The position numbers and the translations under genes were made by a program. The notes beneath the pieces were generated by a model. That model saw nothing but the letters and a program-made list of their open reading frames with translations. It did no database searches and was not told the origin of the DNA. From positions 1 through 36,438 of IMG/VR virus record IMGVR_UViG_3300030108_004973: a stretch of 36,438 nt of DNA, one strand, 5' to 3'. This DNA comes from a virus. Positions 250-24,200 of the stretch are shown here, piece after piece (within the stretch, counting starts at the first letter, position 1; each line of letters opens with the position of its first letter).

Positions 250-497
250 TGGCTCAACTCAAACAGTGGTTAAAGCAAGACTGGGTCAGGATAGGTACGG
301 ATGGATCTATAAAGGGCAAGTGCGGCACTTCACCCAACAAGAAAAGGCCAGACAGATGCCTGCCTAGGCGCAAGGCAATGAGTCTTACTAAAGCCGAAAG
401 AGCAGCCACTGCTAAAAAGAAAAAACGTGCTGGATCAAGAGGTCAAAAAGTTGTCGCAAACACCCCAAGAGCAAAGGTAAGAAGTGGCGGTAAATAA
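249..497 (+). CDS. Small basic phage protein, WVRIGTDGSIKGKCGTS type
   Basis: An 82-aa protein starting at GTG 249, which overlaps the previous stop. The core WVRIGTDGSIKGKCGTS is followed by PDRCLP and by a Lys/Arg/Ala-rich helix (SLTKAERAATAKKKKR). This arrangement is familiar to me from phages and large algal viruses, where such proteins are annotated as domains of unknown function (possibly DUF5872; from memory, not checked). It sits in a run of tiny basic proteins between the holin-like genes and the tail nozzle gene, so it is a late gene, perhaps a virion or DNA-associated protein. No catalytic motif is visible. Confidence 0.7.
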   Translation: MAQLKQWLKQDWVRIGTDGSIKGKCGTSPNKKRPDRCLPRRKAMSLTKAERAATAKKKKRAGSRGQKVVANTPRAKVRSGGK

Positions 498-21578: not shown

Positions 21579-22142
21579 GTGGGGGACGATAAGGCAGCAA
21601 TAAAGCACGAGTTACTAGCATCCATTGAAGACGAACTACGTCGAGCTGAGGCTGCCGCTCCCCCACACGCTAAACTGCTTGAGCGGTACAACCCGGAGAA
21701 GGCCGCTCGCATCCTTTTCCTCCATGCCCAAGGCAAGTCCCAGACCTGTTTATGTAAGAAATATGGCTACGATCGGTCCACGGTGATACGCATTATTACC
21801 ACCTATGCAGACCAGTTAGGCAAGTGGCGTGAACTCGGGGGCAAGCTAGCCTCCTACTCCTACCTCAATATCACTAGCCTGGAGGAGGATATGATTGAAA
21901 GTGTGCGTGAAGGCATGGATAGTGGTGAGCTAAAGCCCACCTTCAAGGACATCAAGGACATTTCCATCGCCAAGGCCAATAGCAGCCGGGAAGCCATGCT
22001 GGCCCGGGGGGAGGCAACTAGTATTAGCCGCGAAGAGAAGGTGTGGACAGACGATGACTATAAAAAGCTAATGGAACAAGCACGTAACCAGATGGCCAAT
22101 GAGGCTATACCTGCGGAGACAGTAGATGAGCGGGAAGGGTGA
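21579..22142 (+). CDS. Putative small terminase subunit
   Basis: A 187-aa protein from GTG 21579, the only start near the 5' end. Residues about 40-75 (YNPEKAARILFLHAQGKSQTCLCKKYGYDRSTVIRII) form a helix-turn-helix of the kind that opens small terminase subunits. The rest is charged and helical (ADQLGKWRELGGKL, a long acidic middle, MLARGEATSISREEKVW). Small terminases recognise the phage DNA and feed it to TerL, whose gene lies just downstream. No ribosome site is evident. The call rests on the DNA-binding fold and position. Confidence 0.65.
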   Translation: MGDDKAAIKHELLASIEDELRRAEAAAPPHAKLLERYNPEKAARILFLHAQGKSQTCLCKKYGYDRSTVIRIITTYADQLGKWRELGGKLASYSYLNITSLEEDMIESVREGMDSGELKPTFKDIKDISIAKANSSREAMLARGEATSISREEKVWTDDDYKKLMEQARNQMANEAIPAETVDEREG

Positions 22143-22329
22143 CAGGGACAGAACCACCGATCGGGACGCATACGATCGTGGATGGGAACGCATTTTCGGG
22201 GGAAACATAGATTCGACGAAAGCAGCGATGCTTTCGGACGTGGGTGCAAATCCCACTTCCTCCACCATAGAAAAACAATCATTTGTGGCACCGCCAATTA
22301 GGCACGGAATAAGGAAGATCATTGAGTAA
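22126..22329 (+). CDS. Small SGKGD...WERIFG phage protein whose frame runs through the tmRNA-like RNA
   Basis: The ATG at 22126 overlaps the end of the terminase small subunit gene. The first 24 codons encode MSGKGD, a basic DRD stretch, then a Y-D-R and WERIFG. This matches a tiny protein seen in many phages, typically ending soon after the W.(R/A/K)IFG motif. From codon 25 (base 22198) the frame is the tmRNA-like sequence, giving the nonsense-like 'DVGANPTSST' that T-arms yield when translated. The frame stays open to 22329 (67 aa). Either the C-terminal part is dual-coding or the native stop was lost when the RNA element arrived. The N-terminal part is the credible protein. Confidence 0.55.
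   Translation: MSGKGDRDRTTDRDAYDRGWERIFGGNIDSTKAAMLSDVGANPTSSTIEKQSFVAPPIRHGIRKIIE
22198..22267 (+). ncRNA. tmRNA-like tRNA-like domain without mRNA-like domain (mini-ssrA)
   Basis: A 70-nt element folding as the tRNA-like end of tmRNA. Acceptor stem GGGGGAA (22198-22204) pairs with TTCCTCC (22257-22263), including G3:U70, the alanine identity pair, followed by A73 (22264) and encoded CCA (22265-22267). AGATTCGAC (22209-22217) matches the conserved tmRNA D-loop signature. GAAAGC/GCTTTC (22218-22223/22230-22235) is a P2-like helix closed by only six bases. GGAC (22236-22239) and T-arm GTGGG/CCCAC (22240-22256) follow as in bacterial tmRNA. The T-loop is TGCAAAT (position 55 is G). The tag ORF and pseudoknots are absent. 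It lies between the terminase genes and has no D-stem or anticodon arm, so it is not a normal tRNA. Confidence 0.8.
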
Positions 22330-22549
22330 TATGAACAAAAACGCCCAACTCGTCCAGAAGTCTCTGGATACCATTGTCCCTGGTTGGGAGACAGTGATGG
22401 TGGCGTCTATCACAGAACATGGTTTTGAATATGACATCTTCAACAAAACTGATGTCGAAAACTACCAAGAAAACCTGGCGGTGCTGTTAGCCCTTGTTAC
22501 GAAGAAGTCTCAACAGGAGCTGAAAGAAATTGACTGGCTAGATGATTAG
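22322..22549 (+). CDS. Hypothetical small protein upstream of TerL
   Basis: A 75-aa acidic protein. TTG 22322 has AAGGA six bases upstream; ATG 22331 is an alternative. The product (MNKNAQLVQKSLDTIVPGWE; ITEHGFEYDIFNKTDVENYQENL; KKSQQELKEIDWLDD) shows no known motif. It overlaps the TerL start by 8 bases, so its translation is coupled to TerL. It sits just after the tmRNA-like RNA; RNA processing there would create its message's 5' end. Confidence 0.6.
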   Translation: MSNMNKNAQLVQKSLDTIVPGWETVMVASITEHGFEYDIFNKTDVENYQENLAVLLALVTKKSQQELKEIDWLDD

Positions 22550-24200
22550 CTTTACAGAGCATCCCTTCCTAGAGGCCCCTACGGCGGAGGAGATAGTTTG
22601 GCTATACGATCACAATCTCCCACTCCTCAAACAACTTCATAAGGCCCATGAGGGGCGTATAGAGGCCAGTGTTAGCGACCCCATACGATATGGGTTTGAC
22701 CTGCCTGGTTGGGAACGCGTTCGCGATGGTTTGCAAAGCTATAATGAGTGCTTGGCCCTCGGGGGGAATAGGTCTGGCAAGACCACTGGTTTTGCAAAGA
22801 TAGTTATGGAGTCCGTAACGGAGAGTAAGGATGGCCATGTGGTATGCTTTAGCCAGAATGAAGACACCTCCATCAAGGTGCAGCAAGCTGCCATATGGGA
22901 GATGATGCCCCGGGAGATGAAGAAGAAAACCAAAAGCATGGATGGCTACATCAACTTCTCCATGCAAAACGGATTTACGGGCAAGAGTTTCATCTTTCCA
23001 GACACCCGAACCAGGGTAGATTTCAAGACTTACACTCAGTTTAGCAACAACCAAACCATCCTTGAGGGCTTCGAATATGGATTTCCGGACCCGGTGGGTA
23101 TCAATATTGGTGCATGGTTGGATGAATATTTGGGTGACGCTACGCTAGTCAACACTCTCAGATTTCGTCTAGCCACCCGAGATGCTGTAATGGGTGTAGG
23201 GTTTACCCCTATAGATGGCTACACGCCTTTCATTTCTGATTACCTCAAGAATGTAGAAACATTGGAAACTAGGGGTGCAGCCCTAATCAAGGGCCGAGAA
23301 GTCCCTGTGCGGCAATACAGCCCATCTAGGGATGCTTCTGTAGTCTATTTGCATTCCGACGAAAACCCCTTCGGGGGGTATGAGCGTATAGCGAAGGATT
23401 TGAGGGGTAGACCCGACGAAGAAATCTTGGTTCGTGCTTATGGGGTCCCGGTGAAAAGCATGACTTCCCTCCTTCCTCTCTTCAACACCGAGGTGAATGT
23501 GTTGAGCGATGAGAAGGAGAACAAGTATGGAATGAGGTTTCCCGACGTCTCCAATAAGGCGAGATATACCATTTATCAGGTGGTGGACCCGGCGGGTGCC
23601 AGAAACTATGTCTCGATATGGGCTGCAGTTGATGATCGGGACAATGTGTACATTTGCCGGGAGTGGCCTGATTGGGATACATATGGCGAGTGGGCCGATT
23701 TCGGGGACCCGAAGTGGAGGTATGGTCCTGCCTCCAAGAAGATAGGGCTGAGTGTCCAGGGCTATTGCGACTTGTTCGATGAGGTGGAGGATGAGCTGGG
23801 TGTGGAAGTGTTCGAGAGGATAGGTGATTCCAGGTTCTTTGCCAAGGAGAACGAGAATAATGAGGACCTCTTCATGTCCTTTGAGGAGCATGGATTTATA
23901 TTCGTTCCATCCGATGGCCGGATGGAGGAGGTGGGCTTATCTGCATTGGATGAGTGGTTCAATTACAACCCGAATGAGCCGATTGATTCGGCCAATCGCC
24001 CGAGGTGCTACATTCACGAGAGCTGCCGCAACCTAATCGATAGCCTCATCAACTACAACTCAAAGGGGAAAATGGACGAACCCCTTAAGGACTTCTTCGA
24101 TGCCATACGTTATTTGCGAATGGCAAATGCTGGGGAAGGTCCAGTCCATGTAACCGCTCGCGATTTAGCAGTGACTCGCCGAGCTATGGGAGGATATTAA
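22542..24200 (+). CDS. terL: Large terminase subunit (packaging ATPase-nuclease)
   Basis: A 552-aa protein, usual size for TerL. The N-terminal ATPase has Walker A LGGNRSGKTT (about residues 73-82) and a Walker B-like INIGAWLDE (about 186-194). The C-terminal RNase H-like nuclease has VVDPAGARN, then IGDSRF, and FFDAIRYLRM near the end, which supply acidic metal ligands. It is the motor that translocates DNA into the prohead and cuts it. The first codons overlap the preceding gene. A gene starts immediately after its stop, and the portal gene lies close downstream. Confidence 0.93.
   Translation: MISFTEHPFLEAPTAEEIVWLYDHNLPLLKQLHKAHEGRIEASVSDPIRYGFDLPGWERVRDGLQSYNECLALGGNRSGKTTGFAKIVMESVTESKDGHVVCFSQNEDTSIKVQQAAIWEMMPREMKKKTKSMDGYINFSMQNGFTGKSFIFPDTRTRVDFKTYTQFSNNQTILEGFEYGFPDPVGINIGAWLDEYLGDATLVNTLRFRLATRDAVMGVGFTPIDGYTPFISDYLKNVETLETRGAALIKGREVPVRQYSPSRDASVVYLHSDENPFGGYERIAKDLRGRPDEEILVRAYGVPVKSMTSLLPLFNTEVNVLSDEKENKYGMRFPDVSNKARYTIYQVVDPAGARNYVSIWAAVDDRDNVYICREWPDWDTYGEWADFGDPKWRYGPASKKIGLSVQGYCDLFDEVEDELGVEVFERIGDSRFFAKENENNEDLFMSFEEHGFIFVPSDGRMEEVGLSALDEWFNYNPNEPIDSANRPRCYIHESCRNLIDSLINYNSKGKMDEPLKDFFDAIRYLRMANAGEGPVHVTARDLAVTRRAMGGY

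Follow-up and report, generated by a model that had tools for sequence, protein, structure and literature searches.

Among tmRNAs reduced to the tRNA-like domain (TLD), the open-access literature already describes one that is phage-borne, the TLD-only tmRNA of mycobacteriophage DS6A (tmRNA Website 11587), DS6A being the single phage from which such a gene is reported there (PMC4131195, PMC11915505; Mao et al. 2009, RNA Biol 6:355). According to the same accounts, a DS6A-like molecule strongly inhibits tmRNA whether or not it can be charged, perhaps via SmpB titration (PMC4131195, PMC11915505). In mitochondria, tmRNAs devoid of a tag reading frame are found together with SmpB, and a helpful role on incomplete mRNAs has been proposed for them (PMC11915505). 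Furthermore, integration commonly takes place at ssrA, fragments of which occur in prophages (PMC9004378).

In this work, we analyzed a stretch of 36,438 nt from a marine phage, comprising the IMG/VR virus record IMGVR_UViG_3300030108_004973 (hereafter, the window), in which a 70-nt element had been predicted from the sequence at 22198-22267 as a tmRNA TLD lacking the mRNA-like domain. This original prediction was correct to the base: RF00023 matches 22198-22267 (+) exactly and end to end, from model position 1 to 374, with the mRNA-like domain wholly skipped. The score of 52.8 bits lies above the curated gathering score of 47 (E 7e-20 in a 701-base stretch), and both the 5' and the 3' halves contribute to it, a match of the 3' half only being what the original prediction had named as speaking against it. 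At the gathering score this was the only Rfam match in the whole window, and no second tmRNA or tmRNA part was found elsewhere in the phage record. Our own family model R1, built partly from the window sequence, gave 96.2 bits for the same positions. ARAGORN, proposed as a parallel check, made no call on the TLD region while RF00023 matched above its cut-off; thus, normal annotation would overlook this gene.

All the predicted structural parts were present in the element. The 5' strand of the 7-bp acceptor stem (22198-22204, with G3 at 22200) pairs with 22257-22263, and the 3' strand (22257-22267) carries U70 at 22261, A73 at 22264 and the encoded CCA at 22265-22267, as located by the sequence and the RF00023 alignment. 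Together with G3:U70, A73 and CCA, the TLD contains AGATTCGAC and GGAC (22236-22239, preceding the T-arm). The D-loop signature of tmRNA, GATTCGAC, occupies 22210-22217, and is nearly unchanged in the relatives found through TerL, which are the sequences where conservation of GATTCGAC and GGAC can be assessed and where a few changes do occur. Not counting the C-G pair, GATTCGAC is separated from GGAC by only 16 nt, which form the P2 hairpin, leaving no mRNA-like domain. P2 (22217-22236) consists of 8 bp, from C20-G39 to A27-U32, and closes on a GCGA tetraloop (22225-22228), rather than on the 6-nt loop that had been envisaged in place of the tag region. The T-arm (22240-22256) has the loop TGCAAAT, in which position 55 is G, not U, and the TGC is constant throughout the window family. 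The minimum-energy fold of the 70 nt corresponds exactly to acceptor, P2 and T-arm, at -28.4 kcal/mol (z = -3.75; 0 of 200 shuffles equally stable), and it is retained when folded inside the 241-nt mRNA context.

Two other identities were considered and rejected. A permuted (two-piece) tmRNA, in which the 3' part precedes the 5' part, scored only 12.9 bits with RF04321, whose cut-off is 47. A canonical or misread tRNA would have a D-stem and an anticodon arm, neither of which is in the fold, where the P2 hairpin stands alone, and ARAGORN reported none. Across ten bacterial genomes, RF00023 recovered the full-length tmRNAs at 77-265 bits and, besides genuine tmRNAs and one TLD discussed below (L147), nothing exceeded 39.6 bits; this background, along with the missing D-stem and anticodon arm, led us to reject a misread tRNA.

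Relatives of the element were sought with a context-free pattern describing TLDs that lack the mRNA-like domain. This pattern fixed GATTCGAC and GGAC and left out acceptor pairing, G3:U70 and A73, acceptor pairing being checked afterwards. It matched 61 IMG/VR stretches and, across 257 Gb of GTDB genomes, a further 31. After the acceptor-pairing check, the viral matches were mostly genuine and the genuine GTDB matches came down to one, L147, whose contig also encodes terminase and portal and belongs to a MAG with a separate full tmRNA of its own. Within the searches made, the TLD-only gene is nearly absent from bacterial genomes and nearly restricted to phages. Of the 60 unique candidates in which six or more acceptor pairs form, 57 have G3:U70 and the remaining three resemble chance matches; this fraction is the fair number for its constancy, since the 57-sequence set was filtered on G3:U70. 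In these 57 sequences, acceptor pairs 1-3 are fixed and pairs 4-7 take several forms, with 398 of 399 acceptor cells paired, and the outer five P2 pairs are formed in 91% of cells, compared to 51% with shuffled partners. Within the window family, each of the five P2 pairs that were counted has changes on both sides, and 97.8% of all stem cells are paired, a level reached by 0 of 500 shuffles. P2 loops alternate among stable tetraloops (GCGA, GAAA, GAGA, UUCG and others). The stems are therefore kept in relatives by compensatory changes, loss of pairing being the other outcome named in advance as adverse to the prediction. The alanine identity elements of the window TLD, G3:U70 and A73, are constant in its relatives while the adjacent pairs and P2 covary, which argues for a functional RNA and against an attachment-site relic; judging from this conservation, the RNA is probably alanylated. 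We conclude that these 70 nt constitute a genuine RNA gene, namely a tmRNA cut down to its tRNA-like domain.

The distribution of such genes among phages is broad. A pattern for the 3' part of the window family alone matched 84 IMG/VR stretches as near-identical copies; IMG/VR contigs are partly redundant, so that stretch counts do not equal counts of independent phages. Around 20 dissimilar TLD-only types were identified in other phage contigs, many of them with a P2 helix, an asymmetric internal loop and a distal stem, and several located inside tRNA arrays, on contigs with 4 to 25 tRNA genes. The cultured phages BRock, pSt2308, LuckySocke (Streptomyces) and Jojan60 (Stenotrophomonas) carry unannotated TLD-only genes above the tmRNA cut-off (L230 1491-1571, L229 1501-1581, L231 1501-1581 and L233 1492-1574, respectively), which adjoin tRNA genes. 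The same search called XacN1, PaMx31, Rb1, QDWS359 and S-CAM3 as full permuted tmRNAs, and thus it separates TLD-only from permuted genes. Three loci (L004, L011 and L055) were set aside, as they are TLD-only by RF00023 but ARAGORN calls a 343-nt tmRNA. A Blast search of the 70-mer against annotated phages returned T-arm matches only, several of them to tRNAs, and the nearest annotated phage, C75C1 (TerL 72%), is without the element. On one phage contig bearing a TLD-only tmRNA, a Pistol ribozyme (RF02679) was also observed (L033, 5916-6012, -).

With regard to genomic position, the original prediction had assigned the element to a packaging operon, and the TLD does lie in the terS-terL operon; it had made no mention of the ORF at 22126-22329 (+) that surrounds the TLD in frame. 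Upstream of terL, the terS-like gene (21579-22142, +) displays a weak HTH match (Pfam HTH_23, E 8e-5, below the curated cut-off). It is followed by the ORF just mentioned, a small 'GKGD' protein gene of 67 aa in which the TLD forms codons 25-48; by a 75-aa small ORF (22322-22549, +) that overlaps both neighbours and is conserved in part of the relatives; and by the terminase large subunit gene (22542-24200, +; phrog_2, E 3e-11). In relatives with TerL identity of at least 85% and enough upstream sequence, the TLD is always upstream of terL, and between terS and terL wherever the sequence covers terS. It occurs in part of the group with 78-79% TerL identity and is absent at 75% and below; some close relatives are without it, so the TLD is dispensable. 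The TLD site of the TLD-less relatives holds no tRNA or other Rfam RNA, and one of these relatives (L132) has a RAGATH-24 RNA (RF03049) at 283-423 (-). Furthermore, the same TLD type is found upstream of HNH-terS-terL in the L007 group, where the terminase family is a different one (phrog_9), and, in L013, at a distance of 4 nt from a TerL of a third kind. The TerLs of these three groups have no significant similarity to each other, and the TLDs beside them share, P2 excluded, 50-52 of their 52 bases. Other TLDs lie between terL and portal (L005), upstream of terL (L012) or upstream of the major head gene (L039), and that of L147 is on the strand opposite terL, hence outside that operon. Promoter-like sites showed no excess over shuffles; terminator-like sites numbered 8, against 4.9 +/- 2.2 expected, with none between terS and terL.

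The GKGD gene was delimited from the ORF list, its TLD-less homologues and its pattern of selection. TLD-less relatives keep the same gene minus the TLD, and the N-terminus and the conserved C-terminal motif share one frame in 44 of 46 unique TLD-bearing GKGD ORFs. TLD lengths within this gene are 70, 73 and 97 nt (including the three bases after A73), all 1 modulo 3, and outside the GKGD context 69-nt TLDs occur too. Pooled pairwise pN/pS was 0.16 in the first 10 GKGD codons and 0.30 in the 12 C-terminal codons, and pS was approximately 0.75 in the GKGD flanks versus 0.25 in the first seven TLD codons, all rough values given the short segments and the near-saturated pS. Both halves of the GKGD gene thus look to be under purifying selection, apparently at the protein level in the flanks and at the RNA level in the TLD. 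Starts and stops overlap along terS, GKGD, the small ORF and terL, suggesting translational coupling as a possible reason for keeping the frame. Several variants of this gene were also observed: 97-nt TLDs in which the P2 loop is extended by 27 nt of GTGTCAC-like repeats with the frame kept (L113-L115, L174, L178, L180-L192), apparent in-frame deletions in which a remnant of the 5' end of the TLD persists as a scar (L106, L108, L110), and an in-frame Cys-rich insertion directly after the TLD, of approximately 65-80 aa where complete (L009, L067/L068, L101, L178). These insertions share one place in the gene, as if the site collects cassettes.

In some loci (L010, L052/L074, L087, L088, L174, L180), the end of the TLD is the start of a tRNA-Thr(UGU), with no spacer and no encoded CCA, both RNAs standing head to tail and in frame with the GKGD gene. 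The arrangement resembles tandem tRNA precursors, and it supports a putative release of the TLD by tRNA enzymes. We consider it moderately probable that the TLD acts as an alanyl-TLD that lowers host trans-translation during infection. The TLD would probably be excised from the polycistronic late mRNA by tRNA-processing enzymes, the GKGD transcript being either translated through the TLD or cut to release it; the excised, CCA-ended RNA would probably receive alanine by virtue of its G3:U70 and A73, and would most likely compete with the tmRNA of the host for stalled ribosomes as well as for SmpB and EF-Tu. Since it offers no template for a tag, it may tie up SmpB or enter ribosomes as a dead end. 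No phage SmpB was found among 13 phage records, and the partner is assumed to be that of the host. The RF00023 match, the constancy of G3:U70, the compensation in P2, the low pS of the TLD and the tRNA-Thr tandem are consistent with this inhibition, as are the near absence from bacterial genomes, the near-identity outside P2 among phages with dissimilar terminases, the TLD types inside tRNA arrays and the DS6A-like precedent; the lack of the TLD in part of the close relatives speaks against it.

A somewhat unlikely alternative, which nevertheless stays the main rival, is a tag-less rescue, in which alanyl-TLD and host SmpB would enter stalled ribosomes and the nascent chain would be moved onto alanine and released untagged, so that ribosomes and phage proteins are salvaged instead of rescue being blocked. 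Its standing derives from G3:U70: inhibition is independent of alanine according to the reviews, so SmpB titration alone leaves the invariant pair unexplained, and the invariance of both G3:U70 and A73 suggests that charging matters. The co-occurrence of tag-frame-less mitochondrial tmRNAs with SmpB (PMC11915505) points the same way; however, the open-access accounts relate that in E. coli tmRNA was inhibited by a TLD molecule of similar kind, and tag-less rescue offers no evident way to release a ribosome without a stop codon. We are similarly doubtful of a dual-use gene, in which one stretch of transcript would either encode the linker of a small protein of the packaging operon or, at times of low ribosome occupancy, be folded and excised as an alanyl-mini-tmRNA, the RNA gene being nested in frame as a cassette that moves among phages with unrelated terminases. 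Each excision would leave a non-stop message, tying RNA release to translation status.

The remaining explanations give the RNA no part in trans-translation. RNase P and RNase Z are not known to require G3:U70 or GATTCGAC, and both features are kept, so we regard as quite improbable that the fold does nothing more than mark an RNase P and RNase Z cut separating or tuning the terS and terL messages; this punctuation had been offered in the original prediction, and in its simple form it leaves the invariant G3:U70 unexplained. It fits where the TLD lies in the window family, between terS and terL, and its place near packaging genes elsewhere, as well as the TLD-tRNA tandems, which resemble a processed precursor, but TLDs of other types sit in tRNA arrays, and in close relatives the operon persists without the TLD. 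These arrays would instead agree with a decoy, that is, a cheap substrate for a host defence or stress nuclease acting on tRNA-like RNAs or CCA ends, by which tRNAs are spared, and phage tRNA arrays may indeed counter tRNA loss. We hold the decoy to be less probable still, as an anticodon or D-arm would be expected to be kept, and it is the tmRNA-specific GATTCGAC, P2 and GGAC that are kept instead. Finally, a functionless attachment-site relic or host ssrA fragment acquired by the phage, also raised in the original prediction, is in line with the integration at ssrA and the prophage fragments cited above (PMC9004378), yet the 5' half accompanies the 3' half in 121 of 121 matches found through the latter (loci examined, some being duplicate loci of one contig), and covariation and depressed synonymous change indicate selection on the TLD; we consider it extremely improbable.

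If the inhibition of trans-translation holds true, many phage lineages possess a minimal RNA directed at the host's main ribosome-rescue pathway, in a class of gene that common tRNA annotation overlooks. The conserved G3:U70 sharpens the question of whether such an RNA is a mere SmpB sponge or requires charging and ribosome entry, and cultured carriers such as LuckySocke, on Streptomyces lividans, make it tractable. In addition, an RNA gene maintained in frame within a protein gene is unusual.

A block of trans-translation by a TLD is plausible by analogy and has a precedent in the published accounts of DS6A-like molecules, and is thus not new; what is new is the breadth across phages, with the window type as a widespread variant. 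The open-access literature makes no mention of recurrence beside terminase genes, of a G55 T-loop, of a tRNA-Thr tandem or of in-frame nesting. The window TLD shares with bacterial one-piece ssrA (RF00023) the acceptor with G3:U70, A73, the GATTCGAC D-loop, the start and end of P2, GGAC, the T-arm and CCA, and differs in having no mRNA-like domain, no pseudoknots and a P2 that is a short hairpin. The two-piece tmRNA of the methylophage Melnitz (PMC9004378) is likewise phage-borne, in marine phages; however, full phage tmRNAs of this kind keep the tag-coding domain and are detected by ARAGORN, neither of which applies to the window TLD. CDS-less organelle tmRNAs, from mitochondria and, at about 65 bp, from Mallomonadaceae plastids (PMC11915505), are also TLDs without a tag frame, but arose by reduction of organelle genes with no phage context. 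The closest likeness is to DS6A, as the window element too is a phage-borne TLD-only tmRNA without a tag reading frame; as far as known, the sequence and the phages are different, DS6A being absent from the phage collections compared, and, unlike the DS6A gene as described, the window type forms a large family by terminase genes, with in-frame nesting, a G55 T-loop and a tRNA-Thr tandem.
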